Origin: Anaerolineales bacterium
GTDB taxonomy: Bacteria; Chloroflexota; Anaerolineae; Anaerolineales; Anaerolineaceae
Assembly: GCA_020060485.1 (NCBI GenBank)
Contig: JAGVAB010000125.1
Span: forward strand, 1 to 27,977
Length of the DNA stretch: 27,977 nucleotides
Reading direction: 5' to 3'
In this document: positions 11,132-27,977 of the stretch, piece after piece
Numbering within the stretch: the first letter of the stretch is position 1
How the letters are laid out: each line of letters opens with the position of its first letter
Notes under the pieces: generated by a model
What the model was told of the DNA's origin: nothing
The model's input: the letters and a program-made list of their open reading frames with translations, nothing else
Databases searched by the model: none
Position numbers and translations under genes: made by a program

Positions 11132-11156
11132 AGATGAATGAAAAATCACACGCATC

Positions 11157-13958: not shown

Positions 13959-14094
13959 CTAGTTTATGATATAAACCAAACATAAATACTTGCCTGCAAG
14001 CAGACTGCCCCCAATGCCTGCAATCGCTTTAAAAAAGAGTTCATTGATTGTTTGGTCGGAAGAAAGCCTTGTGCCTGATGCAAATCATCATGAC

Positions 14095-14973
14095 TCAATG
14101 CCCATAAACACTCAGCACTTCGCTTGCCCTTTCGCTGATGAAGGCATTCGAGCGGTTCTTTGCGCCGGTGGAGACAATGAAGGCGAACGGCTTTTCCAAT
14201 TCCCATTCTCCGTTCTTCTGCTTTGCGCGCAGCAGGTGCAGAGCGCGGGCGGTGCGGCTGTCGCGCACCTCTTCGCGGGCCAGCAGCCACAGGATCTCGA
14301 GGAAATCACTTTTCCAGGAATTGGGGAAGGCTAGCTTGTCGATGTCGCGGTGCAGCAACTCATCCCTGCGGTGCGAGCTGAAGCACACTTCGTGGTGCAG
14401 CACGAACTCAATGCAGTTTTCGATGAAATGCTGGGCTTCTTTTGTTCTCTCCGTCCGGGGGATAAAGGAAATCCCCTTGAGCAGCTTGATCACGCCCCAA
14501 TAACAGGTGTGGCTGCCGTAACAGGAAATATTGCCCAGATAAGGATAAGCCCTGGCCGTCTTGTAGCCACCATCGTCAAAGCGCTGGTACTGGTCAAAAA
14601 AGGCAATGATGTCATTGAGCATTGCGGTTTGGTCAGTCTGGAAATAGTGGTGCAGGTAGATCATGTTGCCGTTCAGGCAGGGGATGGGGAAATGGCTCAT
14701 GCCCGGGATGCGGAAGATGCCGTGTTCGGGGGCGTAGAACTGCTCCGTGACCAACTGCATGGCCGGACGGACCTGCGGCAGGTCAGCAGGAGCTTTGAGG
14801 TCTGCCAGCAGGAGCAGGGTCCACAGGGTGGCCTTGTACTTGGGGGTGTAGTACAGATAGTCCGGGTGAATGCGGTGATCTTCCTCGTCGTATCCCCAGC
14901 GGAAAGCCTCGTCCTGTTTGGCCAGAATATTGTCGATCAGGTCTTTGCGCAGCGCTGTTATCTCTTGGTCCAT
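14095..14973 (-). CDS. Terpenoid cyclase / prenyltransferase-fold protein
   Basis: 292 residues, soluble. The sequence is mostly helical with repeats of the alpha-6/alpha-6 barrel type, for example YLYYTPKYKATLWTLLLLADL, VTEQFYAPEHGIFRIPGM, FDDGGYKTARAYPYLGNISCYGSHTCYWGVIKLLKG and ISERASEVLSVYG. This is the pattern of squalene-cyclase-like or prenyltransferase-like stand-alone proteins. The DxDD motif of true squalene-hopene cyclases is not seen, so cyclase activity is doubtful. It might be a sugar- or peptide-processing barrel instead. AAAGGA lies seven bases before the ATG. Confidence 0.72.
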   Translation of the reverse strand: MDQEITALRKDLIDNILAKQDEAFRWGYDEEDHRIHPDYLYYTPKYKATLWTLLLLADLKAPADLPQVRPAMQLVTEQFYAPEHGIFRIPGMSHFPIPCLNGNMIYLHHYFQTDQTAMLNDIIAFFDQYQRFDDGGYKTARAYPYLGNISCYGSHTCYWGVIKLLKGISFIPRTERTKEAQHFIENCIEFVLHHEVCFSSHRRDELLHRDIDKLAFPNSWKSDFLEILWLLAREEVRDSRTARALHLLRAKQKNGEWELEKPFAFIVSTGAKNRSNAFISERASEVLSVYGH

Positions 14974-15054
14974 ACACTATTCCTTTGATATAGGGTTTGT
15001 TATGTTTTGAGAATCCAGGAAGAGTCACAAGTGTCTTGAAATTTCACTGGGGAG

Positions 15055-15106
15055 ATGGGCGGACGCCATCCGCCCATACGAAAGAACAAATTGGGTTGCC
15101 AACCCA
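15055..15106. repeat. Two adjacent palindromic hairpins
   Basis: First, ATGGGCGGA (15055-15063), 5-base loop, TCCGCCCAT (15069-15077). Second, TGGGTTG (15092-15098) / CAACCCA (15100-15106). They lie between the hydrolase gene and the cyclase-fold gene, with no T-run. They resemble short intergenic palindromes used as RNA stabilisers or mobile palindromic units. Confidence 0.5.
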
Positions 15107-15179
15107 CCCTACTCAATTATGCTGCGCCACATGGCGGCGCCAGCGGACAGGTGAATGATAATGGATTACAGGGTTCCTA

Positions 15180-16328
15180 TTACTTGATATCAGCAAGATT
15201 ATTGCTGCCTGTCAGCACATCTTCCTGCATGATCTTCTGCATTTTTTCGGGCTCTTCAAAGAGTGGGCTGTGCGCCGACTGCTCAAACGTGTAAAAACCT
15301 TTGACGGGTGCCTCTAATCTCTCAAAATAAGATTTGGCCTCCGTATAGGAACAGGTGTAATCATAGATTCCATGAATAAAATAGACAGGAAGACCAAGCT
15401 CAGGAATTTTTTGAGACAGGTCGGTGTTGATCATTTCATCCCACATGGAACTGATGCCGGACTGTGATTTGCCGCGCCACATGTTGACCTTTTCTGTCAA
15501 TGTGTAATCCCGACTTGTCAGCGAAGGTAAAAAGATGCCGGTGACCACCGATTTCATGTCGCGTGTCGTGCCAATGCCAAGACTATGCATTGCCACATCA
15601 CGCACGGCTCGATATGCATCCGGCATGCCGTCTGTCATGGTGACAGGCGCGGCCTCAAGCTTTTGGGCCATCTTGCTGTTTCCATTTTCTTTGAACTGCT
15701 CAAGCATGTAATCATACGCCAGCGCTTCGGATTTGAGCTGGTTCGACATTTGTGCCACGCCGATATAGGCGTAGTAAAGCTCTGGCGCTTGTGCAGCTGT
15801 ATGTATGCCAATAAAGGTGCCCCCCGAATGTCCCATCAGGTATATTTTTTCCTTGCCAAAGCGATTGCGAAGGTAATTTGTGACCTCCAGCGTGTCTGAG
15901 ATCATCTGCTCCAGAGACATTGATTCGGGTGGAATATCGGCGCCGTAGGAGATGCCTGAGCCGCGCTGTTCCCACCAGACGATGGTGAAATATTCTTCGA
16001 GACCGGTGGGGTATCTTTGGGTTAGAAAGTAATCTGGCAGGCCGCCATGAAGATAAAGCAGCACAGGGTTGGCTGCATCCTTGCTCTTTATGAACATCCC
16101 CTGGCGCACACCGTTGATGTCAACAAAGACCTTTTCAGAAATGCTGCCCGTCAACAGGTTCCCGTTTTCATCCAGAAAGGGTTGCGGCTGTCCGGGACTC
16201 AAGATGCGCAATACGCCCAAAAGAACAAGCATACAAGCCAATAAGGCCGAAATAGTGATCAGCATAAACCGTCCCGCCTTTCGTGGAAAGGATTGAATGG
16301 AAAACCGTTTGTTCCTTGTTTCTGTCAT
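15180..16328 (-). CDS. Membrane-anchored alpha/beta hydrolase (proline iminopeptidase-like)
   Basis: 382 residues from the ATG at 16328 (GGAG eight bases upstream). An N-terminal transmembrane anchor (residues about 20-40, FMLITISALLACMLVLLGVL) precedes an extracytoplasmic catalytic part. The oxyanion region is LYLHGGLPDYF, followed by the proline-iminopeptidase signature WWEQRGSGISYG. The nucleophile elbow is GHSGGTF with Ser168. A later Asp lies in FIHGIYDYTCS and a His in EQSAHSPLFEEPEKM, completing a likely Ser-Asp-His triad. Family members are aminopeptidases or esterases. The cap domain contains the usual insertion with helices. No partner gene is obvious. Confidence 0.9.
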   Translation of the reverse strand: MTETRNKRFSIQSFPRKAGRFMLITISALLACMLVLLGVLRILSPGQPQPFLDENGNLLTGSISEKVFVDINGVRQGMFIKSKDAANPVLLYLHGGLPDYFLTQRYPTGLEEYFTIVWWEQRGSGISYGADIPPESMSLEQMISDTLEVTNYLRNRFGKEKIYLMGHSGGTFIGIHTAAQAPELYYAYIGVAQMSNQLKSEALAYDYMLEQFKENGNSKMAQKLEAAPVTMTDGMPDAYRAVRDVAMHSLGIGTTRDMKSVVTGIFLPSLTSRDYTLTEKVNMWRGKSQSGISSMWDEMINTDLSQKIPELGLPVYFIHGIYDYTCSYTEAKSYFERLEAPVKGFYTFEQSAHSPLFEEPEKMQKIMQEDVLTGSNNLADIK

Positions 16329-16438
16329 TGGGTTGTCTCCAAATACTGTTAAGACCATAAAAACCGGATCAGGGCAAGAATGTGTTCCAAATCTGCCAGG
16401 GCAACAAGCATTTCGTGTAGGCGGCGATACTTGCCTGA

Positions 16439-16933
16439 TCAACTCGCGCTGGCCAGAAACCCTTCAACATCGGCAATGAAGGTCAGCGTACCGCCCTCGA
16501 TGCGTTCTGTCAGTGCGTCCAGGTCGCCGAAATCCGGGTCATCTACCAGGGTGTGGCTGATAATGGCATCCTCGCCTTTGAGGGTCTTAACAAGGCGGTA
16601 TTTGTCCCAGCCGCTTTCCCTGATCAACTGCCAGTATTTTTTCTGGAACTGTTTGTTATACCCGACCAGGCTCACCTCAAAGCGAAATTCTTCATACAGG
16701 AAGACAATAGCGACCTTTAAGCCGCGTTCTTTCAAAGATTGCGGCATGAAGGCAAAATAGGTCATGTCCATATAGCCTTGATAGAGGTTCGTTACAACAT
16801 CCTCTGGATACTTTTTCATGAGATGGGTGCGCAGATCCATCATGTACTCCATCAGGCCGCGATAGGCGCTTTGGATTACGCCCGCTTGCAGTTGGGCTTT
16901 GTAGTCTTGCATGGCTTCTTGCAGGGTTGGCAT
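16439..16933 (-). CDS. Uncharacterised protein of about 164 residues (possibly DUF7000-type)
   Basis: The start at 16933 is set by GGAGGAG five bases before the ATG. The product is soluble, helical at the N-terminus (TLQEAMQDYKAQLQAGVIQSAYRGLMEYMMDLRTHLMKKYP) and ends with alternating strands (KVAIVFLYEEFRFEVSLVGYN, ISHTLVDDPDFGDLDALTERIEGGTLTFIADV). The pattern resembles a small family (DUF7000) met in Gram-positive bacteria, with no known activity; I am not certain of this. It lies about 110 bases upstream of the hydrolase gene and could be in the same transcript. Confidence 0.7.
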   Translation of the reverse strand: MPTLQEAMQDYKAQLQAGVIQSAYRGLMEYMMDLRTHLMKKYPEDVVTNLYQGYMDMTYFAFMPQSLKERGLKVAIVFLYEEFRFEVSLVGYNKQFQKKYWQLIRESGWDKYRLVKTLKGEDAIISHTLVDDPDFGDLDALTERIEGGTLTFIADVEGFLASAS

Positions 16934-17085
16934 TGGAACTCCTCCAGTATTCATGAGTGTGAGGCGGCAGGCCGGTTATTTTTTGTGGTTCGACAACGCA
17001 CATTGCCAGTTTAATTATATGCATAGTGCCAATTGCTAATGTTTCCATTTTTGCCGCAAATTGCGGCGCAGAATTAGGTGGCGAT

Positions 17086-17724
17086 CTAAATACCATACTT
17101 CTTGACAAGCGCTTTGGCTTTGCGCTTTGTCTTGGGGCTGATACTCGATACGCCAGTCTGGATGAATTCATCAACACCCTGGTCGCGAATCTGATGATAT
17201 ATACCTTCGAGTACATTCAAAACATCACACTTGAGTACAGCTTTTTGCTTCTCGGTATAATGGCAAGAATTGTCCATGTCCAGTAAACGGGCAATGATTG
17301 GCTTGCGCAATTCGGGTTTGTGATCAAGGATTTTTCGGCTGTTTTGAATGCAGCATTGCCCTGTCATGAATTTTTCGTCATTGATGTGCTCAAAATAAGC
17401 GTTAAGAACTTTTGAAAACCGGTTTTCTTCGTCAACCAGGGTCAGGTTTGCCAGGATGGTCAAAGCAAAATCGCGGTGGTATGAATTCTTGTGATCGAGC
17501 AAAGCAGCGATCTCGTCCCAATAGGGATAAAAAAGTTCCGGTTTTTGCTGACTGGCTTTTGCTGTCACGTAGAAGCAGTGGTAATACACCATGATATGGG
17601 GGTGGGTCAGCATCTGGTTGATGATCTCAGCCCGGATTTGAGCGTCAGCCAGTGCCAGCTGTACGAACCAGTCGATATCGAAGTCCTTTGCGGAGATTTT
17701 CTCGATCAATTCAAGGGTATTCAT
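17086..17724 (-). CDS. Helical-repeat (HEAT/ARM-like) protein
   Basis: 212 residues, all-alpha in appearance with HEAT-like units such as QIRAEIINQMLTHPHIMVYYHCFYVTAKA, YWDEIAALLDHKNSYHRDFALTILANLT and VLKCDVLNVLEGIYHQIRDQG. It ends with a basic tail (SPKTKRKAKALVKKYG). HEAT-type proteins act as protein-binding scaffolds; the partner here is unknown. The start is supported by AAAGGA four bases before the ATG. The gene stands alone. Confidence 0.72.
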   Translation of the reverse strand: MNTLELIEKISAKDFDIDWFVQLALADAQIRAEIINQMLTHPHIMVYYHCFYVTAKASQQKPELFYPYWDEIAALLDHKNSYHRDFALTILANLTLVDEENRFSKVLNAYFEHINDEKFMTGQCCIQNSRKILDHKPELRKPIIARLLDMDNSCHYTEKQKAVLKCDVLNVLEGIYHQIRDQGVDEFIQTGVSSISPKTKRKAKALVKKYGI

Positions 17725-17985
17725 ATCTTCCTTTGTGCCTGATGTTTTTGATAAAAACCGGATTAAGGTATTCCAATTCCATGCTGTTTGTGGAGCAGGG
17801 GCAAGAGACTTGATTGTCCGGCAGCTCTGCCTGCTCTATAACTTTGTCAATGCATATCAAGATGAAAAAAATTTCAAAACAAAACCAGCAGAGCAGGTAA
17901 GAACTGACAGAAACCAACAGGAGTATTACTGGTAATGAACTCACCTGGAAAAAGCAAACCACCAATTCATGCAAATGCCAATCGG

Positions 17986-18774
17986 TTAATCTTGATCCAG
18001 CCCGTCTCCGCTCTCGATCAGTTTCTTCAGGCGCTGCATGAAGCGCGCCGCCGGCGCACCATCAATCACATCGTGATCAAAACTGATCGTAACGCTCTGG
18101 TATTCACGCACCTCAATCCGGTGATTGACAACCCCCGGTTTTTCAGCCAGGCCGCCCAGGGTCAATTGCAGGGTGTGGTTGGGAACCGGCAGCGCCCAGC
18201 CGCTGCCGCGGCCAAACATGCCCACCGAACTCAGCAGCACGGTGCCGTAGTAGTCCTTGATCAGTTGCGGGTTCATGAACAACACTTTGAGAAAGAGCCG
18301 CCGCAGAAATGCCGGCAGGCGCACAAACCAGTCGATGAACTTTGATTCCTGGCTGCTCTGGTGCTGGCTCTGAAAGGCTGTGATCTCCTCCTGAAGCTCG
18401 GCCAGGCTCTTGCGGTTCACGGCGCGGATGATGTGCGGACGGATCGTCTTCTGGCCGTCCACTTCAACCTCGAACAACATGTTCACATCCACCTCGTCGA
18501 AGATGACCAACTGGTTGCGCCAGTTTCGATAGGCGTGCATTTGCCGGTCGACGTCAATGGCTTTGCCCAGGCAAGCCAGAAAGAAGACCGAAAAAGACAA
18601 CGCCTGGCCGGTGTGTGCCCGGTACTGGCGGATCTTTTGGCGCGCCCCGCTGATGTCGAACTCCACCAGGCCGTGGATGGTGTGCTTTTTGAGTCCCAGT
18701 TTGCCGCCATCCACCATTAACTGACGGGTGCGGGGGTAGGGGATGACCAACTGGTTTGGGAGTTTGGGTTTCAT
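17986..18774 (-). CDS. Stand-alone 2-oxo acid dehydrogenase E2-type acyltransferase
   Basis: 262 residues covering only the catalytic domain of the dihydrolipoamide acyltransferase family (chloramphenicol acetyltransferase fold). The catalytic HxxxDG is present as DHDVIDG with His234 and Asp238. No lipoyl domain and no E1/E3-binding domain precede it, and there is no room for them, so it probably does not work in a dehydrogenase complex. It starts within the last four bases of the preceding glycosyltransferase gene (ATGA), so the two are translationally coupled. That suggests acylation of a glycosylated product, which is inference. Confidence 0.85.
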   Translation of the reverse strand: MKPKLPNQLVIPYPRTRQLMVDGGKLGLKKHTIHGLVEFDISGARQKIRQYRAHTGQALSFSVFFLACLGKAIDVDRQMHAYRNWRNQLVIFDEVDVNMLFEVEVDGQKTIRPHIIRAVNRKSLAELQEEITAFQSQHQSSQESKFIDWFVRLPAFLRRLFLKVLFMNPQLIKDYYGTVLLSSVGMFGRGSGWALPVPNHTLQLTLGGLAEKPGVVNHRIEVREYQSVTISFDHDVIDGAPAARFMQRLKKLIESGDGLDQD

Positions 18775-20084
18775 GGTTTTGCAGGTTCTCCCAAGTAGCG
18801 CTGGACGAGTTTGACCGCGTTGCCCACGCCATCTTCTGCGTGAATGGCTGCGCCAACGCGGGCGCTGCGTTCTTTCATCGCAGAGTCATTTACAGCTATG
18901 CGAATAGCCTGCGCCAGGCGTTCGGCGGTCAGGTTTTTCTGGGGGATGGGATCAGGGCCCAGCCCCATGGCTTTGATGCGCGCCCCCCAGAAGGGTTGAT
19001 CGAGAATGAAAGGCACGATCACGGAAGGCACCCCGGCGCGCAGCCCTTCGGCTGTGGTTCCGGCTCCGCCATGATGCACCACGGCCGCCATGCGCGGAAA
19101 CAGCCAACTGTGCGGGGCAAAATCCAGCAGGAAGACAGTCTCCGGCAGGCTTGCAGGGCGGATGCCGCCCCAGCCGGTGGCCAGTACGCCGCGCTGCCCG
19201 CTTTGGGCCAGCGCTTCCAGCGTCAGGGCAGCCAGTTCCTCTGGTTTTTGGCCGGTCATGCTGCCAAAGCCGATATACACCGGCGGGGTGCCGGCATTCA
19301 GGAAGGCTTGCAGTTCTGGCGAGGGCTGCCAGTCGGATTGATCGGTCAAACCACCCGCCGAGCTTGTCGAGGCTTTTGAATGGCTGTCGAGATAGAAGGT
19401 ACCGGTGATATGCACGCTGTCCGGCCAGTCTGCCGGGTGCGGGATAATGCCGGGGCTATACGCGCTGAGCATCGGGGTGAATCGTAATGTGCGGTAAAAC
19501 CTGCGGAAATTTGTGGCGGGCAGGCCCAGGCTCTGGCGAAAATCCCGCACGAACGGCAGATACCACTGCCAGATCACCCGCAGCATGGCCAGGCCAGACA
19601 CATGGTTATGCAGACCGCCCAAATCTCGTTGAACAGGCCAGGACGGCGCGGCAAAAGCCCTGGTCGGCAGCAGCGGGGTCGGCTCGACATGCATCAGGGG
19701 AATGTGCAACTTCTCGGTGATTGCTTGCCCAAATGCGCTGAAAACTCCCAGGCAAATGAGGGCGTCTGCATCCCGGCAGGCGGCAAAGGCATCGGCTGCC
19801 ATTTCCTGAATAACAGGGGCGATCATGGTGCGGATGGTGCGAATTGATTTGAGGGGATTACCGCCGCCTGTTTCCATGAACTCCCGACCGGTGTCGCTGG
19901 CCATGATCTGCTGTACATCCCCGCGCAGGGGAAAGAAATCCAGACCGTGCTGGCCCACAAGATCGGCAAAGTCTGCCGGGGCGGCCAGGCGCAGCGCATA
20001 CCCCGCCGCTTGCAAGCCCTTGCCCAGGGCAATACAGGGCTGGATATCGCCTCGCGAACCTGCTGCAAAGATGGTGAGATTCAT
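18771..20084 (-). CDS. UGT/MGT-type family 1 glycosyltransferase
   Basis: 437 residues from the ATG at 20084, preceded by AAGGATCAGG. The family transfers a nucleotide-activated sugar to a small hydrophobic acceptor such as a sterol, a carotenoid or a macrolide. The N-terminal Rossmann start is NLTIFAAGSRGDIQP, typical of sterol 3-beta-glucosyltransferases and related enzymes (G-S-R-G-D-x-x-P). The C-terminal nucleotide-sugar site is HHGGAGTTAEGLRAGVPSVI (about residues 337-356), followed by DQPFWGARIKAMGLG. It is soluble or membrane-peripheral. It overlaps the downstream acyltransferase by four bases. Confidence 0.92.
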   Translation of the reverse strand: MNLTIFAAGSRGDIQPCIALGKGLQAAGYALRLAAPADFADLVGQHGLDFFPLRGDVQQIMASDTGREFMETGGGNPLKSIRTIRTMIAPVIQEMAADAFAACRDADALICLGVFSAFGQAITEKLHIPLMHVEPTPLLPTRAFAAPSWPVQRDLGGLHNHVSGLAMLRVIWQWYLPFVRDFRQSLGLPATNFRRFYRTLRFTPMLSAYSPGIIPHPADWPDSVHITGTFYLDSHSKASTSSAGGLTDQSDWQPSPELQAFLNAGTPPVYIGFGSMTGQKPEELAALTLEALAQSGQRGVLATGWGGIRPASLPETVFLLDFAPHSWLFPRMAAVVHHGGAGTTAEGLRAGVPSVIVPFILDQPFWGARIKAMGLGPDPIPQKNLTAERLAQAIRIAVNDSAMKERSARVGAAIHAEDGVGNAVKLVQRYLGEPAKP

Positions 20085-20202
20085 CCTGATCCTTAATCGC
20101 CGGGGATACGCATGCAACAAAAACATTACCCGCCGGGCTGGATTCCGTTCACAAACCGGGTTTCAACAGGGTAATTATATACTTCTTCTGGAGCGGGGCG
20201 GC

Positions 20203-20230
20203 AAAAAAGGGCAGGTCAACGACTCGCCCT
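20203..20230 (-). terminator. Weak terminator after the two-TM protein gene
   Basis: On the minus strand AGGGC (20226-20230), a 13-base loop, GCCCT (20208-20212), then a T-run. The stem is short. It lies between the two-TM gene stop and the glycosyltransferase gene. Confidence 0.4.
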
Positions 20231-20276
20231 GGTGAAAGAAATGTCAACGCTCTGCCCGCAATTACCCCCTGAGCCT

Positions 20277-20801
20277 TTACATTTTCTCCAGGGACAGAAT
20301 CTGAAGATGTCCTTCCAAATAATACACAACATACCCGGCGCCGTCTTCCAGTTCAGCAAAGGTATCATCCGGCAAACTGAAAATTTTACCGGCGAGGTGC
20401 ATTTCGGTGACTACGTAAGTGGATGGGGGAGCGTCCACGTTCTCGCTGCTGCGTTCCACACGGGCGATGCGGGCTGTTCCTTGCGCCGCGGCCACTTGAA
20501 TTGGCCGCGACGGCTTGACTCCCAGGAAGATCAAAGGCAAACCGAACAACATGAAGAACCCGCCGCCGATCGCCCATCCCACCCAGTTGGGATCACCTGC
20601 CAAAAACAGTTTGCCGGCATCGATCAAGAAGGCCACACCGCCTCCGCACGCCACAAGCACGCCGAATAACAGCATGATGATTTTGGCAGTTCTGCGTTTG
20701 GTCTTCAGTCGGGCAGCCTGGCGGGGCGACAAAGCACCGTTGCGATTGTATGTCAGATCTTCATCAGTAAAATCGAGACTTTTCATCAAATTGCTGGTCA
20801 T
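20277..20801 (-). CDS. Two-transmembrane protein of unknown function
   Basis: 174 residues. The first ~40 are charged and cytoplasmic. Two transmembrane segments follow (IIMLLFGVLVACGGGVAFLI, about 42-61, and WAIGGGFFMLFGLPLIFLGV, about 75-94). The rest is a soluble beta-rich tail (GTARIARVERSSENVDAPPSTYVVTEMHLAGKIFSL, then YVVYYLEGHLQILSLEKM). The tail resembles the short beta domains of small membrane-associated proteins, but I do not assign a family. AAGGAGGGAGCG immediately before the ATG is a very strong ribosome site. Confidence 0.75.
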   Translation of the reverse strand: MTSNLMKSLDFTDEDLTYNRNGALSPRQAARLKTKRRTAKIIMLLFGVLVACGGGVAFLIDAGKLFLAGDPNWVGWAIGGGFFMLFGLPLIFLGVKPSRPIQVAAAQGTARIARVERSSENVDAPPSTYVVTEMHLAGKIFSLPDDTFAELEDGAGYVVYYLEGHLQILSLEKM

Positions 20802-20811
20802 CGCTCCCTCC

Positions 20812-21009
20812 TTAATTGGTCAAGATCGCATCCTGATCGCTTTTCACGAGAATGATTGATGGCGGTGAATCCGGCAGATTCTCATTAAAAATTTGCGAAT
20901 TTTTCATCAGTCCAGGGATGTAATTTTTCCTAATTGTACCATATTTATCTAAATAACACATCTGTTTCTCAACAGGCTGGAGCAACACTTCATAGCGGAC
21001 GCAATTCAT
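20812..21009 (-). CDS. Possible small protein coupled to the exported protein gene
   Basis: 65 residues, no recognised domain. Its ATG at 21009 overlaps the stop of the upstream gene (ATGA), which is the main argument for it. The product is rather hydrophilic (NCVRYEVLLQPVEKQMCYLD and on). It could equally be a chance open frame in a stretch of low coding signal. Confidence 0.3.
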   Translation of the reverse strand: MNCVRYEVLLQPVEKQMCYLDKYGTIRKNYIPGLMKNSQIFNENLPDSPPSIILVKSDQDAILTN

Positions 21010-21746
21010 TTCTCATCCAGGGTCAACTTTCCAAAATCAAAACACGAATAGCTCTTGTAGATCTCTTGACGGTTGACTTCCTGGACTTCACCATCCCGCG
21101 TGACCAGGACTTTTACAGCAAAAGAAGAGCGCATATCGCAGCCCATCCTTTCGTCAGACTCGTCAAACAGGTAAACATAAAAACCGTCCACCGTCTCTTC
21201 GACATGGGTTTCCTCAATCTGCCTTACCAGATACACAACGTTCTCATTGGGGTCGATATCATACCGTGCTGAAAGTGAGGTCATTGCCATCGCATAACTT
21301 AAGGCTTCATCAACCGATTCAATGGGCGCAAAGATCTCCTTAAATTCAGATCTTTTGATGACCAATTTGTAGTTGCCGTCCTGAAAGATTGCAAAACTTC
21401 GATATCTTGCATCCAGGCCTTGAGGTTTTCGGAAATAATCCTTATCAGGAGGATCGCCATTTTCATGGATACATTCCACTACCACATAAGGCGGCTGCAA
21501 CCCGCCAACATAAAACCTTGGTGAAGCGATTTTGTCACAGCCAAGAGTGACAAGCTCCGGGCAAGATTCTTGCAGTTTTCCCTCACATCCAAGGTCTTTC
21601 AATCGCTGTCCATTAATTGACCAGTCCAGCGGAGGATATTCAATGACGACTACCTTTCGATATGCAAGCAAATATGAAGGAATCCATGAACAGCTCAGTG
21701 ATATCAACACTGGAAAAATGATCTTAAGCAAACGGTACTTGCACAT
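21006..21746 (-). CDS. Exported protein of unknown function
   Basis: About 246 residues from the ATG at 21746 (weak AAGAGA ribosome site); an ATG at 21779 is also possible. The N-terminus (CKYRLLKIIFPVLISLSCSWIPSYLLAYRK) is a signal peptide or membrane anchor. The mature part has several cysteines (DLGCEGKLQESCPELVTLGC) and ends in a strand-rich region with ESDERMGCDMRSSFAVKVLVTRDGEVQEVNRQEIYKSYSCFD. No known family recognised. The gene lies on the minus strand just after the DUF4256 gene, with about 140 bases between. Confidence 0.65.
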   Translation of the reverse strand: MCKYRLLKIIFPVLISLSCSWIPSYLLAYRKVVVIEYPPLDWSINGQRLKDLGCEGKLQESCPELVTLGCDKIASPRFYVGGLQPPYVVVECIHENGDPPDKDYFRKPQGLDARYRSFAIFQDGNYKLVIKRSEFKEIFAPIESVDEALSYAMAMTSLSARYDIDPNENVVYLVRQIEETHVEETVDGFYVYLFDESDERMGCDMRSSFAVKVLVTRDGEVQEVNRQEIYKSYSCFDFGKLTLDEK

Positions 21747-21882
21747 TCTGTTATCTCTTGGGAACGGGCTGTTGATCATGCGCCCAACGATCAATGGCAG
21801 GATGGGTGGCAACTCAACCTGCTGTCTCTTTCCTGGATCGCAGTGAATCAAACCTGGCAGAATGCCGTAGTCACTGCAAAAT

Positions 21883-22446
21883 TCAGACCCTTAGCAAACC
21901 GCGAAACCCCCGGGCGCCATAGTATGAGTCTGCGCCATTGTGGTAAACAAACACCTGGTCGTAGCGACGGTCCATAAACAGGGCGCCGCCGAGTTTGCGA
22001 ATGCCGGCAGGTGTTTGAATCCAGCTCGAGGTTTTTGTGTCAAACTCTCCCAGCTTCTGCAACGCTCGGTATTCTTCTTCCCTCAAAAGCTCAATGCCCA
22101 TGGCTGCCGCCATATCAACAGCAGAATTATCCGGTTTGTGCTCTTTCCTTGATTCCAGCGCCTGGCGGTCATAACAAAGACTTCTGCGACCTTTAGGGCT
22201 TTCAGCAGAACAATCATAAAAGATGGTTCCGTCCGTTTCGGGATCGCGGCCAACCACATCCGGTTCGCCGCCTGTTCGTTCCATTTCGTGCAGTGACCAC
22301 AGCTTTTCAGGGTTTGCTTCCAGCCTTGCCCGCACCGCAGCCCATGCAAGGCCTTCATGGCGACTCATATTTTTCTCGAAACGGGTTTGCAATGTTCCGA
22401 GCAGTTCTTCTCGTTGTTTTGGGGATAAGTCTTTCATATTATTCAT
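21883..22446 (-). CDS. DUF4256 domain protein
   Basis: 187 residues from the ATG at 22446, or 184 from the ATG at 22437. Characteristic stretches are RHEGLAWAAVRARLEANPEKLWSLHEMERTGGEPDVVG, FYDCSAESPKGRRSLCYDRQALESRKEHKP, AAAMGIELLREEEYRALQ, and SWIQTPAGIRKLGGALFMDRRYDQVFVYHNGADSYYGARGFRG. The family has no known function and is often found in accessory DNA. The promoter (22453-22481) would place the transcript start on or next to the first ATG, giving a leaderless message; for the second ATG the AAAAGGA would lie upstream of the transcript start. Confidence 0.85.
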   Translation of the reverse strand: MNNMKDLSPKQREELLGTLQTRFEKNMSRHEGLAWAAVRARLEANPEKLWSLHEMERTGGEPDVVGRDPETDGTIFYDCSAESPKGRRSLCYDRQALESRKEHKPDNSAVDMAAAMGIELLREEEYRALQKLGEFDTKTSSWIQTPAGIRKLGGALFMDRRYDQVFVYHNGADSYYGARGFRGLLRV

Positions 22447-22452
22447 CCTTTT

Positions 22453-22481
22453 ATCGTATCGCAGTTGGATGAGTGTGTCAA
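22453..22481 (-). promoter_or_regulatory. Promoter of the DUF4256 gene
   Basis: Perfect TTGACA (22476-22481), 17 bases, TACGAT (22453-22458) on the minus strand. The same TTGACA / TACGAT arrangement stands before the TfoX-like gene. It indicates that this gene has its own transcript. Confidence 0.65.
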
Positions 22482-22535
22482 ACAGATGAATGCCTGAACG
22501 ATGCAGGCAGGTTTGCATCAACTCCTGCGCCCTGG

Positions 22536-22859
22536 TCAGGACTTTTTCTTTGGCTTGGGGGGAGGAAGTTCTTTTGCAGTGATTCTTATCAGATTGCTAA
22601 ACCATTCTTTGTCCTCCACCTTGTCGTCAAGAAGAAAACTTAATTTTGCGCCCGGGTATGGCGGCGCTTCAACAACTTCGCCGATAAATGACCTTCCGCT
22701 ATCCGTTGGCTTAACAAAGACCTGGTTATCACATACCAAAGCGACGATCTTCCCATCGCTATAAATAGCGTATTCGCCAAACATTTTTCTGTAATGGATT
22801 CCCCCTGCGTTCTCAATTTGATCCACTACGAACTTTACAAAATTCTCATCAGACGACAT
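22536..22859 (-). CDS. TfoX N-terminal domain protein
   Basis: 107 residues, matching the stand-alone N-terminal domain of the competence regulator TfoX. The family signature RKMFGEYAIYSDGKIVALV is near residues 24-42, followed by QVFVKPTDSGRSFI and PYPGAKLSFLLDDKVEDKEWFSNLI. The Lys-rich tail (PPPKPKKKS) is typical of these small proteins. Its molecular role outside true TfoX regulators is unknown. AAGGAG lies six bases before the ATG. Confidence 0.9.
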   Translation of the reverse strand: MSSDENFVKFVVDQIENAGGIHYRKMFGEYAIYSDGKIVALVCDNQVFVKPTDSGRSFIGEVVEAPPYPGAKLSFLLDDKVEDKEWFSNLIRITAKELPPPKPKKKS

Positions 22860-22901
22860 TTGTTCTCCTTGTCTTTTTTCTTGTGAAAACTACCAGTTCT
22901 T

Positions 22902-22931
22902 ATCGTATCCCGGTTAAACCGGGGGTGTCAA
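22902..22931 (-). promoter_or_regulatory. Promoter of the TfoX-like gene
   Basis: Perfect TTGACA (22926-22931), 18-base spacer with an embedded short palindrome (CCCGGTTTAACCGGG), then TACGAT (22902-22907), minus strand. The leader to the ATG at 22859 is about 35 bases and carries AAGGAG. The palindrome in the spacer could be an operator. Confidence 0.65.
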
Positions 22932-22954
22932 ATGGATCTTTGGCTGAAGTAACG

Positions 22955-22982
22955 AGCAGGGTGGATCGGTGGACACCCTGCT
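22955..22982 (-). terminator. Hairpin downstream of the DHFR-like gene
   Basis: A 9-bp stem AGCAGGGTG / CACCCTGCT with a 10-base loop, 100 bases after the stop at 23084 and just upstream of the TfoX-like promoter. No T-run follows on either strand, so it may be a factor-dependent terminator or only a stabilising hairpin. Confidence 0.4.
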
Positions 22983-23083
22983 GACTCTACTTGCTTTTAC
23001 GAACAGCTGGTATGCACCTTTGCAAGAACGAAATGTGTCACCTTGTCCCTGTCCTCAGAGGCCCGACACGGCGCGAATATTCA

Positions 23084-23677
23084 TCAATTTCCGGTTGTGA
23101 TTGCGCCTGCGCGTTCGTAATTCACGATAATGACACCCTTTGAGGTGACATTGCTTTCCGTCACCTGGAATGTCATCGGGATCGTGCCATCGGCAAACAA
23201 CCGTTTTCCAGCGTCCAGCGTTACCGGATAGATCATCAGCCAGAAAGCATCTACCAGATCATGCCTGATCAGCGTTTGAATGAGATTACCACTTCCCCAA
23301 ACATGCAAATCCGGCCCTTGCTGTTGCTTGATTTTGGCGACTTTTTCTGCAACATCGCCGTTTAGAAACACAGACGGCGGCCATGCGCCAGACGTTATGG
23401 TATTCGAGGCGACGTACTTGGTCGCCGCGTTGACGCCAGGCCATGCGTCTGCATGTTGCGGCCAGTACGGTGCCCAAATTTCAAAGGTTTTGCGCCCCAT
23501 TAAGAGGTCGAACGGCATATTCATCTGCTTTCTCAGGGCTGTTCCAAGAATCGCATCGGAATATGGCGCTATCCACCCGCCATACGCGAAGCCGCCGCTG
23601 GTATCTTCATCTGGCCCGCCCGGGGCTTGTATGACACCATCAAGGGAGATATGCTCAAGCACAATAATTTTTCTCAT
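23084..23677 (-). CDS. Dihydrofolate reductase-fold protein (RibD C-terminal-like)
   Basis: 197 residues. The order of motifs follows stand-alone RibD_C/DHFR-like proteins: RKIIVLEHISLDGVIQAPG, LLMGRKTFEIWAPYWP, KYVASNTI, then LHVWGSGNLIQTLIRHDLVDAFWLMIYPVTLDAGKRLF. The family binds NADPH; the substrates of the stand-alone forms are mostly unknown, and folate reduction should not be assumed. AAGGA lies eight bases before the ATG. An attC-like site lies immediately upstream (23713-23846), as expected for a mobile cassette. Confidence 0.9.
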   Translation of the reverse strand: MRKIIVLEHISLDGVIQAPGGPDEDTSGGFAYGGWIAPYSDAILGTALRKQMNMPFDLLMGRKTFEIWAPYWPQHADAWPGVNAATKYVASNTITSGAWPPSVFLNGDVAEKVAKIKQQQGPDLHVWGSGNLIQTLIRHDLVDAFWLMIYPVTLDAGKRLFADGTIPMTFQVTESNVTSKGVIIVNYERAGAITTGN

Positions 23678-23712
23678 GACTGAGTTCCTTCATGTCTGGA
23701 TTACTCAAAGTT

Positions 23713-23846
23713 TGCCAACGGCTGGCGTTACCGGGTGCCGGCGGGATTTGGCGGGACAAACTCCGAGCGTAGATTCCGCTTTTCGGGGCTGAATCCCCTG
23801 GGGCAGGGCGAAAGCCCTCGCCCGTCCGCTACACGCAATGTTGGGC
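23713..23846 (-). repeat. attC-like site 1
   Basis: On the minus strand it begins with GCCCAAC (23840-23846) and ends with GTTGGCA (23713-23719), 134 bases, between the GNAT stop (9 bases away) and the DHFR-like start (35 bases away). Inside the ends are matching arms, GCGTGTAGCGG near the left and CCGGTAACGC near the right. The centre holds two short hairpins (AGGGCTTTCGCCCT and GGGGATTCAGCCCC). This layout, with complementary ends carrying the AAC/GTT triplets and a structured centre, is that of an integron recombination site read in the same direction as the genes. Confidence 0.72.
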
Positions 23847-23855
23847 CGCTCTTTG

Positions 23856-24350
23856 TTATGTTTCTGTTTTTCGCAGCATCAACAATGAATCTCCTTTATC
23901 TGCATATTCCAGAAAACCACATTTCCGATATAACCTTATTGCGTGGTTATCTTTTGAAACCATGAGACTTAGTTTTTGAATGTTGTGCTTTGACGCATGA
24001 TTAATCAGCCATTCAATCATTTTCTCCCCAATTCCTTGACGCCGATAGTTTTTATGGACTGCGATTGCGATTGCAGGTACCGTTTCATTCATATACCCCC
24101 TGATGCAATTGTCGTCCGTGTAAAATCTATACCAGGCTGCTCCGGCTGGCATTGAATCAACAAGAGCAATTACCGCAGCGTCTCCTTCTCTTTTACCCCA
24201 ATCAACAAGCCCATTACTTACGCCTGGATCGGTGAGGCCTTCTTTAAACGAAGGCTTATTTGGGTTAGGTCGCCAAAACACTGCTTCATAAAGCATTTCT
24301 CTCATGAATTGTATATCCGATGGTTTTGATGTTCTCAAACGTATATTCAT
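23856..24350 (-). CDS. GNAT-family acetyltransferase
   Basis: 164 residues, the normal single-domain length. The acetyl-CoA site (motif A) reads AIAIAVHKNYRRQGIGEKM with RRQGIG at residues 103-108, and motif B reads NHAIRLYRKCGFLEY (135-149). The family transfers an acetyl group to amines. An N-terminal segment RLRTSKPSDIQFMREMLYEAVFW is also typical. The start has AAAGGA four bases upstream, only about 15 bases after the end of an attC-like site. The stop lies nine bases from the next attC-like site. Substrate unknown; cassette-borne GNATs include some that modify antibiotics. Confidence 0.92.
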   Translation of the reverse strand: MNIRLRTSKPSDIQFMREMLYEAVFWRPNPNKPSFKEGLTDPGVSNGLVDWGKREGDAAVIALVDSMPAGAAWYRFYTDDNCIRGYMNETVPAIAIAVHKNYRRQGIGEKMIEWLINHASKHNIQKLSLMVSKDNHAIRLYRKCGFLEYADKGDSLLMLRKTET

Positions 24351-24363
24351 GTTTTCCTTTAGC

Positions 24364-24467
24364 GGGCCAACGGCTTGCGTTACCTACGCTGCGGCGGGCG
24401 CGGATATTTTTGGAATACCCTTCACAAATATATTATACTAACCCCCACTCCTCACGCAAAATAAGTC
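24364..24467 (-). repeat. attC-like site 2 (left end degenerate)
   Basis: The minus-strand right half is well preserved: CCGC...GGTAACGCAAGCC-GTTGGCCC ending at 24364. It contains the block GAATA-type AGTATAATA (-10 like, 24432-24437) and TTCCAAAAATAT, both also present in the other two late sites. The left end should read like GCCCAAC but appears as GGACTTAT near 24467, so the AAC triplet is lost. It is likely inactive or an old copy. Confidence 0.55.
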
Positions 24468-24592
24468 CTCATCAACGGGAGGGCATATTTTAACATCGGC
24501 CGAAACTTGTAGCAGGTGATGCGACTCAGCCCGTGCCGCAGAGATCAAAATTGCAACCATTTTCTTGACGCCAGATTTCATAGCCCGTAACT

Positions 24593-24608
24593 CACGCCGG
24601 AAGGCGTG
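24593..24608 (-). terminator. Short hairpin after the CPBP protease gene
   Basis: CACGCC / GGCGTG with a 4-base loop, 18 bases after the stop at 24626. The stem is only 6 bp and no T-run follows, so the call is weak. Confidence 0.3.
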
Positions 24609-24625
24609 GAGTGGGCCGCCCAGGG

Positions 24626-25495
24626 CTATACTGTTTCAATCGATGAGAGCGTCTCTTCTCTTTTGGCTTCTATCTTTTCCAGCCCTTGCCGAAAATCAGC
24701 AAGCAGCTCATCTTCTCGATAGAAAGCGTATCCGGCGAGTGCACATCCAACGATCACCCACACCACCATCCGCCAGATTTCATACTGTTCGGACGTGGGA
24801 GATAATAACTGGCTCATAAAAAAATTCGAACTAAAATGCATGAGAATTGCCGCAAGAATACTCCGCCGGGTTTTGATGTATAGCAATGTCATGAAAAATG
24901 ACAAGCCTACTACACTTAAAACGTACAGCCCAAAGGTTTCCAATTTCTGGGATTGCCCCGCCATGAAACACCAGGGCAGATGCCAAAGCCCCCATATCAG
25001 CCCCAATATCGCGGAACCTCGTATAAACCCAAACCGTACCAACAGCGGATCCAATGCATAACCGCGCCAGCCAAATTCTTCATTCAATGGCCCTGACCAC
25101 AGATACAAAAATAGCGCTAGTGGTATCAACAGCGGATTTGTGAGCAGGGTTTGCAAAGCGGCCATGCCTGGCAAGTCTCCCCCAAAAAGCAGGCTTATTC
25201 CTGTGACCACTACTGCCAGCAGCGGGCTCAGTAACAAGGGTATCAAAAACCACCACCCAAGACGGCGAAAATCGATACAGCGTGCAAAATAATCCCGACG
25301 TTGAACCGGTGTATACGTTTTGAACACCATAATGAGTCCCATGAATGACGGCGCTGGTCCTCCTGCCAGAAACAGTGCCAATCCAATGCCTCTTGACTGA
25401 TCTAGCTGGAAAATTCCAATGGGAAAATAAAACACCCATGTCCACGCAAGTGCGCCAATCATAAAAATGATCAAATGTTTGGACTCTTTTGCCAT
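24626..25495 (-). CDS. CPBP-family (Abi/Rce1-like) intramembrane metalloprotease
   Basis: 289 residues with about seven hydrophobic segments. The family motifs are all present: EE and R of motif 1 in NEEFGWRGY (Glu139, Glu140, Arg144), the His of motif 2 in LIWGLWHLPWCF (His172), and motif 3 in ILMHFSSNFF (His220, Asn224). Members cleave prenylated or bacteriocin-related substrates, or act in immunity to bacteriocins. The C-terminal tail is charged and cytoplasmic (KIEAKREETLSSIETV). No clear ribosome site. It lies downstream of an MccF-like peptidase gene, which also belongs to a peptide-antibiotic resistance family. Confidence 0.92.
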   Translation of the reverse strand: MAKESKHLIIFMIGALAWTWVFYFPIGIFQLDQSRGIGLALFLAGGPAPSFMGLIMVFKTYTPVQRRDYFARCIDFRRLGWWFLIPLLLSPLLAVVVTGISLLFGGDLPGMAALQTLLTNPLLIPLALFLYLWSGPLNEEFGWRGYALDPLLVRFGFIRGSAILGLIWGLWHLPWCFMAGQSQKLETFGLYVLSVVGLSFFMTLLYIKTRRSILAAILMHFSSNFFMSQLLSPTSEQYEIWRMVVWVIVGCALAGYAFYREDELLADFRQGLEKIEAKREETLSSIETV

Positions 25496-25631
25496 TTCAC
25501 TAAACCCTCAAATTCCAAAATTTTCGTCTTTGAACGTATTGTATCCTTGTAGAGGTGACTCGGATTTGCGAAGGTAAAATTTTTTTGGGCAGTCTGGCCT
25601 GCATGATGTCAGGGTTAGCTTGCAGCCTATC

Positions 25632-26618
25632 TCAATGTTCGAGTATGTTGATCTCAACGTGACTTTCATTTGCATCAACAGTCACTTTTCCTCCAATGGG
25701 CAAGGTAACGATTGGGGTTGTGTGGCCGAAGTCCACATTTGCGATGACGGGAATATGATCCAACTCTTTTTTTGCTTTTATCACGTTCCTTAATTGTTCG
25801 CTTGAAACTCTTGATTCGATTTGGAATCTGCCAATCAAAATTCCCTTGACCTTTGAGAATCCTTTGCAGTCGATCACAGATTGAAGATTACGGTCAAATT
25901 CTGCCAGGGAAACTTCTTTCGTCAAACTGTCATCTTCCATTAAGATAATGGTGTCTTCAAGTTTTGGCAGGTAAGCAGTGCCTTGTAACAAGTTGAAAGT
26001 GCATAAATTGCCTCCTATTAACGTTCCGGCGGTTTTTCCTGAATTGATCATCCAGTATCCGTCATTCGGTATGAATTTCCTGTTCTCCTGGTCAAGATAC
26101 CATTCGTCATCTGACCAATATTTTGCCGGTTCAAGTTTATAAGGGATTGATGCTTGTAAACATTTTTGAAAATAATCCAGTGTATATTCCAGCCCTTTTT
26201 TCATACCCAGGCTGGAGAAGTGCGGCCCATAATACGTTGTCATTCCTGTTTTTGCGTATATTGCATTGGAAAGAGCTGTGATATCTGAGTATCCACAAAG
26301 TATTTTGGGGTTCTTTTCAATCAGTGCGTAATCGATTTTGTTGATCAGTTGATTGGAGTTGTATCCACCAATGACGGTAAAAATACCCCTGATTGATGGA
26401 TCGGCAAATGCTGCATGCAAATCTTCAAGTCTGGCAGAAATCGATGAAGAAGCGAACTCATCCATTTCATAGATGTTTTCCCCAAAAACAATTTCCAGAC
26501 CTAAATACTGAAAATTTGCTATTGCGATATCTTTGACTTCATCCGAAATCAATCCCATACTTCTTGATGGTGCGATAACACAAATCTTGTCTCTTGATTG
26601 AAGTTTGTCCGGTATCAT
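25632..26618 (-). CDS. LD-carboxypeptidase, peptidase family S66 (MccF-like)
   Basis: 328 residues from the ATG at 26618 (AAGGA four bases upstream). The family cleaves L,D- or peptide-nucleotide bonds; the branch with MccF gives immunity to microcin C. The Ser-Glu-His triad can be placed as Ser88 in IGGYNSNQLI, Glu228 in IILMEDDS and His299 in VDFGHTTPIV. Also seen are the N-terminal IAPSRS motif, GIFTVIGGYNS and GTLIGGNLCTFNLLQGT. The gene is clearly richer in A+T than the left half of the window. It lies 136 bases upstream of the CPBP gene. Cell-wall recycling is the alternative role. Confidence 0.92.
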   Translation of the reverse strand: MIPDKLQSRDKICVIAPSRSMGLISDEVKDIAIANFQYLGLEIVFGENIYEMDEFASSSISARLEDLHAAFADPSIRGIFTVIGGYNSNQLINKIDYALIEKNPKILCGYSDITALSNAIYAKTGMTTYYGPHFSSLGMKKGLEYTLDYFQKCLQASIPYKLEPAKYWSDDEWYLDQENRKFIPNDGYWMINSGKTAGTLIGGNLCTFNLLQGTAYLPKLEDTIILMEDDSLTKEVSLAEFDRNLQSVIDCKGFSKVKGILIGRFQIESRVSSEQLRNVIKAKKELDHIPVIANVDFGHTTPIVTLPIGGKVTVDANESHVEINILEH

Positions 26619-26774
26619 TTTATCCTTCTCATCGCACGAAGCGATTTTGCTATGTATTTTCAATGGTTCGACTTTAGAGGTCTTAAACCTGAAATTTGCG
26701 CCAAGAATGAACACTATCCCACAACATTAACATTTGAATTTTACAGAAACACATGCATTTACAAAACCCGATCT

Positions 26775-27170
26775 TCAACCTTTGAATATCTTTAAGAGAA
26801 AAGCAATGGATAAAGCCGCAAGCAAACCCCAAATCAGGATAATGACAAGAGCAGCTACTCGGTTTACAGGTTTGCCTTGATTTATGATTTCTTGTGCCTT
26901 TTCTCGACTCTCAGCCATTACATTTTCGGGGATCATCGACAGTGCTATTGTTATTCCCAGGGGGATGAGTATCAAGTCGTCCAAATAGCCCAGGACGGGA
27001 ATAAAATCCGGAATTAAATCAATTGGTGAAAAAGCATACCCAACCACAACACCAGCAAAAATTCTGGCATATAAAGGAACTCGTTTATCTCGATAAGCCA
27101 GATAAAGAGCATAGGTTTCGACTTTCAGTTTTTTGGCTTGCTGTTTCCAATCTTCAATGGAAATTCTCAT
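26775..27170 (-). CDS. YkvA-family (DUF1232) membrane protein
   Basis: 131 residues. The DUF1232 signature is present: LYARIFAGVVVGYAFSPIDLIPDFIPVLGYLDDLILIPLGI (two hydrophobic stretches around the SPIDLIPDFIP core). A second hydrophobic segment lies at the C-terminus (AALVIILIWGLLAALSIAFLL). The first 30 residues are charged and helical. Function unknown. An attC-like site ends 47 bases upstream of the ATG. The ribosome site is poor (AGAAAGATC). Confidence 0.9.
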   Translation of the reverse strand: MRISIEDWKQQAKKLKVETYALYLAYRDKRVPLYARIFAGVVVGYAFSPIDLIPDFIPVLGYLDDLILIPLGITIALSMIPENVMAESREKAQEIINQGKPVNRVAALVIILIWGLLAALSIAFLLKIFKG

Positions 27171-27216
27171 AAAATGATCTTTCTCTGTGACTTGTGGAAA
27201 TTGTATATTTCAAACC

Positions 27217-27337
27217 GCCCAACGGCTTGCGTTAGCGGCAGGCAGGCAGACAAGAATATTTTTGGAAATGATTAACACAATGTATTATACTCACCCCCGC
27301 TCCCCGCGTAATTATTGAAACGCCTTTGTTGTTGGGC
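27217..27337 (-). repeat. attC-like site 3
   Basis: The clearest member of the late group. On the minus strand it starts with GCCCAAC (27331-27337) and ends with GTTGGGC (27217-27223), 121 bases. The inner arms are GCGTT on the left and CCGCTAACGC on the right. It carries the shared blocks AGTATAATA (TATAAT at 27284-27289), TTCCAAAAATATTC and CCTGCCTGCCGCTAACGC. It lies between the DUF2200 gene (with its terminator) and the YkvA gene. Confidence 0.7.
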
Positions 27338-27371
27338 AAGCTGTGTGCTTCGCAAGAGCGCCTTCTTAATA

Positions 27372-27399
27372 AAAAACAGGGTGGGTCAGCGACCCACCC
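27372..27399 (-). terminator. Rho-independent terminator after the DUF2200 gene
   Basis: On the minus strand GGGTGGGTC / GACCCACCC, a 9-bp perfect stem with a 3-base loop, followed by TGTTTTTT. The stop of DUF2200 is 18 bases upstream. It lies just before attC-like site 3. Confidence 0.9.
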
Positions 27400-27416
27400 T
27401 TCTGACTCAAAACGCC

Positions 27417-27782
27417 TTACGAGCCACGCAAAATCTTTTCCATTTTCCTGCCTTTTGCCAATTCATCCACCAACTTATCCAAATACCTGACCTGCTGCGT
27501 CAGAGGATCCTCGATTTCCTCCACACGATACCCGCAGATCACTCCGGTAATGAGGTGTGCATTGGGGTTTAGCGAAGCATGTTGGAAGAATGTTTCAAAA
27601 GTCGCATTTTCCTCTATTAGTTCCTGAAGTTTCTTATTATCGAAGTTTGTTAACCATTCTATGACCTGATGCAATTCTTCTTTGGTTCTGCCTTTCTTTT
27701 CTATCTTGGCAAGATACATCGGATAGACGGATGCAAAGGTCATTTTTGCAAAACGTTGATGATGTGTGTTGGAGTTTTTCAT
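27417..27782 (-). CDS. DUF2200 family protein
   Basis: 121 residues with the family's characteristic opening: [38 protein letters not shown], then [57 protein letters not shown]. Function unknown; it is a small soluble protein often met on mobile or accessory DNA. The ATG at 27782 has AAGG five bases upstream. Its ATG overlaps the stop of a reading frame that comes from the truncated transposase (ATGA). An attC-like element lies directly upstream. Confidence 0.92.
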
Positions 27783-27813
27783 AGACACCTTGAAATTGGT
27801 TTCATTCTTAAGG

Positions 27814-27903
27814 CACTAACGGCTTGCGTTAGCGGCAGGCAGGCGGGCGTGGATGGTTTTGGAATACCTTTATTATACTCACTCACGCTACCGGGTGTTA
27901 AGA
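27814..27903 (-). repeat. attC-like site 4 (left half replaced by transposase sequence)
   Basis: On the minus strand the right half (CCTGCCTGCCGCTAACGCAAGCC-GTTAGTG, with TTCCAAAACC and a perfect TATAAT at 27872-27877) matches sites 2 and 3. The left half is instead coding sequence of a transposase (the LTPGSVSE part, 27878-27901), so the left end is not a true attC end. A GTTAAGA (27897-27903) would pass as a degenerate end, but that may be chance. Confidence 0.5.
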
Positions 27904-27977
27904 AGAATTCCACTGGCTGACCCTGTTCGGTCACCATGATATGGATCTTCAAACCATAGAAATAGCGTCTTTTGCTG
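27878..27977 (-). pseudogene. IS982/IS5-like transposase fragment (runs off the window)
   Basis: Reading from the right edge the minus strand gives [18 protein letters not shown] then [15 protein letters not shown], typical of the middle of DDE transposases of the IS982 type. It is cut off at its right side by the window and at 27878 by the junction with the attC-like sequence, after which homology ends. The frame stays open through the attC-like DNA to a stop that overlaps the DUF2200 ATG, but that part is not transposase. Confidence 0.7.

Follow-up and report, generated by a model that had tools for sequence, protein, structure and literature searches.

A probable integron cassette-array remnant with no integrase in view in an Anaerolineales bacterium

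Clusters of attC sites lacking an integron integrase (CALIN) are known, from the parts of PMC9024848 and PMC8618304 that were available, as groups of at least two attC within 4 kb, in one direction, with cassette-type genes and no integrase. The DNA analyzed here, 27,977 nt of contig JAGVAB010000125.1 of an Anaerolineales bacterium (assembly GCA_020060485.1), hereafter the window, shares these features at its right end, with no integrase in view; it differs from such CALIN in its half sites and in the lost fold of its sites, the lack of the integrase gene intI being seen for the window only. Here it is proposed, with good confidence, that this locus is what remains of a worn integron cassette array and, within the limits of the window, a CALIN; the element itself belongs to that known kind. 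The core of the evidence is the presence of four attC running one way at gene boundaries, the occurrence of the same type of site near the intI of relatives, and the loss of single-strand structure.

Two other described systems are close to the locus. The chromosomal integrons of other Anaerolineae (for example loci L078, L080 and L122, as well as L329 and L330 in the same family; L-numbers denote loci taken from genomes or viral contigs, and G-numbers the genomes of relatives) have the same attC family according to R1, a covariance model built from 30 hand-picked attC of relatives with the window excluded, and differ in having intI adjoining the array and in most of their sites scoring far higher. 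CALIN of virulent phages, already reported in the available text of PMC9892861, likewise have attC without intI, and the right-hand (R') motif of the window occurs also in viral contigs with dense attC runs; however, phage families were absent from the Pfam matches of the 30 window open reading frames (ORFs) scanned. Integrons of Chloroflexota have already been listed, without a description in the portions of PMC8618304 and PMC9668308 that were available, and the former portion names intI loss, rearrangement and off-target insertion as proposed origins of CALIN. A separation of attC from integrase in Chloroflexota is described in no title or abstract opening found on the integrons or CALIN of this phylum.

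Four attC sites of a Chloroflexota type

The right-hand motif, TAACGCNAGCCGTTRGNC, was found with up to three mismatches in four copies, all on the minus strand, at 23713, 24365, 27217 and 27814, with 0.15 copies expected by chance and none of 100 shuffles reaching four. The copies, lying between the right-end genes and all on the minus strand, correspond to TAACGCNAGCCGTTRG, and three of them form direct repeats at spacings of 2852 and 597 bases. In an unfiltered R1 scan of the window the same four sites took ranks 1 to 4, with 39.9, 22.8, 19.2 and 13.7 bits, and the next match had 8.9 bits (E 0.46). The four unidirectional sites of the initial annotation were thereby recovered, and the covariance-model check that it proposed, made with a model built from relatives, found attC structure in them. 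The sites are as follows.

23712–23847, minus strand: attC site 1, following the GNAT gene; 39.9 bits, E 6.4e-9; 15 of 19 model pairs standard
24364–24467, minus strand: attC site 2, right half retained, left half diverged; 19.2 bits for 24364–24400; L'-R' at 24364–24383
27216–27338, minus strand: attC site 3, outer and inner arms intact; 22.8 bits, E 1.4e-4; 9 of 9 arm pairs standard
27813–27880, minus strand: attC site 4, right half only; 13.7 bits for 27813–27932; left half replaced by an insertion sequence (IS) fragment

Site 1 is the only one in the window that matches the relatives' model along its whole length. Both R'' and R' arms, with their AAC/GTT triplets, are present in sites 1 and 3, in agreement with the full sites annotated at 23713–23846 and 27217–27337, and the R1 alignments bear out that the other two retain R' only. 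The inner arms and the unpaired bases follow the conserved order in these two: site 1 has GCGT/ACGC followed by a partly matching inner stem, and site 3 has GCGT/ACGC with a longer spacer, its loop and spacer being unlike those of relatives. The left half of site 2 lacks the R'' triplet, its left end having been placed by eye through alignment with site 3. A crude arm score set the site at 27217 above 100 of 100 shuffles, and did not separate the site at 23713 from them (41 of 100 as good) nor clearly that at 27814 (8 of 100); at 24365 the score detected no left arm. The gaps between sites, of 0.65, 2.85 and 0.6 kb, are all under 4 kb, the distance within which a CALIN needs two or more attC; the attC model built here was used in place of IntegronFinder's own.

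The attC family to which the sites belong was defined from relatives. When genome contigs were scanned for exact matches to TAACGCAAGCCGTTRGRC, 56 loci were obtained; the titles of 37 name Chloroflexi, Chloroflexota, Anaerolineae, Anaerolineales, Anaerolineaceae or Caldilineales. Many loci have a common layout about 130 nt long, in which GCCYAAC, 3 nt and GCGTG lead into a long inner stem that is followed by TAACGC, 5 nt and GTTRGGC. The exact R' pattern is too narrow for counting attC, as it matched 1 of 41 relatives. RNAalifold on the 30 aligned sites gave 19 pairs, seven of which show one or more double compensatory changes, together with left-arm bases that stay unpaired, as in classical attC. 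Near integrases, R1 matched at 96–139 bits within 1.4 kb of an integrase match in 8 of 30 integrase loci (one of them, L095, being a row of the model) and more weakly in four others (L090, L084, L118 and L096), with none at E up to 1 in the remaining 18. In seven of the eight the site lies 5' of the integrase gene, on the opposite strand, as in ordinary integrons, L115 being the exception. Because R1 matches lie near integron integrases in other Anaerolineae, the window sites are read as attC of the Chloroflexota type.

In control regions taken from five genomes of the family, 148 kb altogether, R1 had no match with an E value of 0.05 or less. Among 18 further loci around glycyl-tRNA synthetase (GlyRS) and homologues of window genes (E up to 5), only two R1 matches were found, both in L131. 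At one of them (L131:1347-1473, genome G368, 36.4 bits), DUF4256 is followed by an attC of which only the left half remains, a mirror image of the window's half sites. An Rfam search of the window at gathering thresholds gave no match, Rfam's coverage of attC being unchecked.

Cassette genes between and beyond the sites

The short genes at the right end of the window, from about 21.9 to 28.0 kb, are uniformly on the minus strand, and are listed here together with a hairpin that lies among them.

21883–22521, minus strand: DUF4256 gene (PF14066), probable former cassette gene without a site; homologues precede attC
22536–22859, minus strand: TfoX_N gene (PF04993), possible former cassette gene; no attC link seen
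23084–23677, minus strand: RibD_C gene (PF01872, DHFR-like fold), downstream of site 1, with no site after the gene
23856–24350, minus strand: GNAT acetyltransferase gene (PF00583, 4.8e-15)
24626–25495, minus strand: CPBP / Rce1-like protease gene (PF02517)
25632–26714, minus strand: peptidase S66 gene, LD-carboxypeptidase / MccF type (PF02016 and PF17676)
26775–27170, minus strand: YkvA (DUF1232) gene (PF06803)
27378–27400, minus strand: terminator-like hairpin after DUF2200 and before site 3, 10 pairs and then GTTTTTT (a consensus match only)
27417–27782, minus strand: DUF2200 gene (PF09966, 1.7e-53)

The GNAT gene, its stop codon 9 nt from site 1 as first annotated, makes with this site a clean cassette of about 650 bp, gene then attC in one direction. 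DUF2200 and site 3 form another, of about 600 bp, with the hairpin in between; three genes occupy the 2.85 kb that separate site 3 from site 2. The motif lies 35 nt from the following start codon in the case of RibD_C, 14 nt for GNAT, 46 nt for YkvA and 31 nt for DUF2200 (ATG at 27782), in place of the 20–50 bases given initially; the gene described as DHFR-like belongs to RibD_C, which has that fold. These spacings resemble those of relatives' cassettes, whose sites lie at a median of 27 nt from the preceding stop (n = 95) and 33 nt from the next start (n = 78), as taken from 110 of 260 R1 rows with at least 68 bits, excluding viral contigs and one row cut by a contig end.

Homologues of several window genes are themselves placed at attC in relatives. 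An attC follows the DUF4256 homologue in G004 and G441, and half an attC in G368; in G441 this cassette is beside another that is homologous to the window ORF at 14095–14973. A DUF7000 homologue in G458 and CPBP homologues in G454 and G456 have attC within 76 nt, the G456 case being beside an intact intI, and RibD_C homologues are inside the attC regions of G323 and G325, although attC does not directly follow them. Placement at gene boundaries, sites of an intI-associated attC family and homologues preceding attC in relatives together support the initial reading of attC and a cassette array.

The minus-strand locus L004 of G004 contains DUF4256, a 98-bit attC, a RibD paralogue, DUF2200 and a 27-residue piece of RibD_C. 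Its DUF2200 is 90% identical to that of the window and the RibD_C piece 89%, whereas GlyRS of G004 and the window are 65% identical, and the difference between DUF2200 and GlyRS points to horizontal movement. By eye, DUF2200 in G004 is preceded by a short inverted repeat that resembles attC but is of another type (L004:4313-4385), and it is not called by R1 (5 bits at 4338–4366). DUF2200 was found in 34 of 147 family genomes, mostly at no more than 63% identity, and 3 of 20 DUF2200 loci searched have an R1 match at E up to 0.01 (L258 in G004, L267 in G420 and, weakly, L261). A plasmid search gave matches at the gene level only, in 20 records, with DUF4256 and DUF2200 among the matches listed.

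In those attC regions of the family that lack intI, 77 ORFs were scanned, drawn from the 169 ORFs of all attC regions. They include RibD_C (5), Rce1-like (3), SnoaL_2 (2), DUF1801 (2), GNAT (2), DUF4256 (1) and DUF7000 (1), all of which are also present in the window. As a separate observation, the 77 ORFs, from regions L321–L328 (G454, G458, G325, G323, G441, G421, G420 and G413), also contain one CAT, one APH and one IS200-like transposase; the Pfam families CAT and APH include drug-modifying enzymes. In a wider set of 91 cassette proteins, the commonest families are TIR_2 and methyltransferases, with four each.

Further left, two additional genes are putative former cassettes.

16439–16954, minus strand: DUF7000 gene, putative former cassette; its homologue is an attC cassette in G458
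14095–14973, minus strand: ORF with no family assigned, putative former cassette; its homologue (2e-138) is an attC cassette in G441

Nearly all likely genes from 3267 to 22521 are on the minus strand, and several of their families (DUF1801, SnoaL_2 and DUF7000) recur in the attC regions of relatives; the unfiltered R1 scan recognised no attC in this interval. The right-end cluster may thus be the part with surviving sites of a longer series of former cassettes that would extend back to about 14 kb.

Several results weigh against the reading as a cassette-array remnant. Sites 2 and 4 are weak half sites (E 1e-3 and 0.028), the full-length match is confined to site 1, and the inner halves of sites 2 and 3 resemble no other attC seen. 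Homologues of window genes are not significantly enriched in attC regions (14 of 169 ORFs, versus 6 of 141 in controls, p 0.17); for the genes from 21883 on, the counts are 10 homologues in attC regions and one in controls, a split chosen after the result had been seen. Among the 25 families listed for the 91 cassette proteins only DUF4256 is shared with the window, and about seven ORFs' worth of putative former cassettes further left have no site recognisable in the R1 scan.

Sites and integrases across the host family

No integrase was found in the window, either with an IntI profile or by tblastn, which gave nothing better than E 0.05, and the initial statement that none is visible thus holds for the window. 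According to GlyRS the window belongs to the class of G011, whose metagenome-assembled genomes are titled Anaerolineae, and its closest relative is G421 (87% over 738 of 915 residues), other genomes reaching 68% at most. Two overlapping samples were compared: 147 genomes of the family of G292, G421 included, and 396 genomes of the class. In the family, intI was above the cut-off in four genomes, one of them (G350) with a split gene, and shorter matches were found in G329 and G345; in the class it was above the cut-off in 98 (Fisher p 7e-11), a contrast that the overlap of the samples shrinks and does not inflate. Of 28 genomes chosen by hand from the scan loci, 18 had intI over the cut-off, a ratio that, given this choice, is no prevalence.

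In the same family, R1 attC are present in at least 59 of the 147 genomes, G421 among them, and only four of these 59 have intI over the cut-off. The count is a lower bound, with at most 23 candidates scored per genome under strict filters and further matches unlisted. G421 itself has attC and no intI match. GlyRS was detected at E 1e-250 or better in 109 of the 147 genomes, and missing contigs alone are therefore insufficient to explain the scarcity of intI.

Two loci record loss in progress. In G350 (L331; G350:C3:190556-191493) intI is split over two frames, with two attC on the usual side, apparently a CALIN in the making, and an attC region of G454 has a frame with a 32-residue match to the start of IntI. 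The pattern in the family fits intI loss after an ancestral integron, together with some continued arrival of cassettes.

This separation of sites from integrase across the host's family is the most interesting aspect of the locus, and its interest is raised by how often relatives retain sites and how rarely the integrase. A distinct, structured attC family spans the Anaerolineae, and because attC and intI are split across one family in this way, the origin of CALIN, by intI loss or by delivery in trans, can be tested by comparing related genomes. Cassette traffic in Chloroflexi is also of practical interest, since the gene sul4, which occurs in integrons, has been proposed to come from Chloroflexi (PMC5732528).

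Decay of the sites and competing origins

Folding the sites as single strands, a check that the initial annotation suggested, did not give the stable structure sought: on the minus strand no window site folds better than shuffled sequence (z 0.31, −0.95, 0.77 and −1.04), and on the plus strand z is from −1.06 to 0.29. Among eight hand-picked attC of relatives, seven fold better than shuffles (z −2.6 to −4.3), the eighth, from L004, having −0.41. The window sites are labelled decayed attC because they lack the stable fold that seven of the eight relatives have; they are attC by descent, though probably poor or dead as substrates. Sites 2–4 also have in common a private inner part, which occurred in no attC elsewhere when site 4 was used as a DNA query on the 147 family genomes; the query had matches in 14 of them, 12 through its right end. 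As a pattern in viral contigs the private part is too AT-rich for its matches to be informative. The right 38 nt of the half sites (2 and 4) recur in attC of the family, including one adjoining intI in G349.

At site 4 the decay involves an IS, and two features lie at the joint.

27878–27977, minus strand: fragment of an IS982-family transposase gene, running off the window; best tblastn match against plasmids 72.7% over 33 aa
27872–27901, minus strand: promoter-like TTAACA-18-TATAAT, 11 of 12 positions (a consensus match only), spanning the joint of IS and site 4 and facing DUF2200

The left part of site 4 corresponds to IS982-type transposase code, the joint being placed from the site alignment and tblastn. 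The truncation joins a TTAACA of the transposase code to the TATAAT of site 4, a hexamer present in the loops of sites 2–4, and a scan of the window for promoter-like sequences gave 13 matches for 9.9 expected. An attC-borne promoter was considered and rejected: the relatives' sites compared in register have no TATAAT inside, the first hexamer in site 4 is transposase code, and the joined pattern occurs in none of the 396 class genomes.

In the proposed history, drawn from the integron literature, the cassettes would once have been joined head to tail by IntI, recombining the folded attC strand between G and TT of R'. IntI may since have been lost, may be out of view beyond 27977, or may never have been resident. 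The sites would then have decayed through base changes, loss of left halves and truncation by IS982, leaving some genes no longer separated by sites, and these would now be ordinary accessory genes, probably with local promoters. No empty site can be compared in G421, since the DNA of the window from 15000 to 27977 has a single 27-nt match in this closest relative.

A broader and rather doubtful account, based on the presence of attC in 59 or more of the 147 family genomes against intI in four, one of them broken, is that the host's family uses integron cassettes without owning integrons. Its members would retain attC and exchange them with one another, cassettes would be delivered and shuffled by phage integrases, by those of neighbouring cells or by a different recombinase, and the window would be a decaying stop in this traffic. 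It is quite unlikely that the cluster is instead the distal part of a complete chromosomal integron whose array runs on past the IS982 fragment and ends at attI with a functional intI. The integrase platform of a minus-strand array is expected above 27977, outside the window, which ends 0.16 kb past site 4, inside the IS fragment and where the integrase side would begin; the term integrase-less is consequently valid for the window only. Moreover, intI is intact in G349 and G456 of the family, where attC lie on its usual side, and draft genomes overstate CALIN according to the available part of PMC9024848. Against this stand the scarcity of intI even in attC-bearing genomes of the family, the absence of an intI match in G421, and the decay of the window sites, as expected without an integrase.

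Very improbable is that the cassettes are still mobile, with sites 1 and 3 usable and recombined in trans, whether by the integrases of phages and other cells or by a different recombinase. Near-consensus attC (98–127 bits) are found in G441, G454, G381, G458 and G421, where no intI was detected, DUF2200 is held in common at 90% identity, and an outside IntI is able to capture CALIN cassettes (PMC9668308, in its available part); however, the window sites fold no better than shuffles, and in the fetched regions without intI the IntI profile turned up, apart from the IntI start in G454 and a weak match in L004 (E 0.009), no further recombinase. That the sites are dispersed intergenic repeats merely resembling attC is barely credible: 71 of the 121 family attC listed (from 45 genomes, omitting rows below 40 bits and partial matches in G331 and G339) have no neighbour within 4 kb and sites 2–4 share their private inner part, whereas the independent model matches, proximity to intI, compensatory pairs (7 of 19), placement at gene ends and the common strand of all 50 attC with a neighbour within 4 kb speak against such repeats.

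Beyond the family, R1 also matched dense runs in viral contigs, with 10, 9 and 7 sites in 4.3, 3.0 and 2.1 kb (L065:814-5138, L075:38-3070 and L077:822-2951); by eye, some of these sites seem to fall within coding frames that read Cys-x-x-Cys in the loop. Additionally, a 4.3-kb contig binned as a Bathyarchaeota archaeon (L035:1-4300) has six R1 matches of the Chloroflexota type, two of them cut by the contig ends, the result of either transfer or a binning error.

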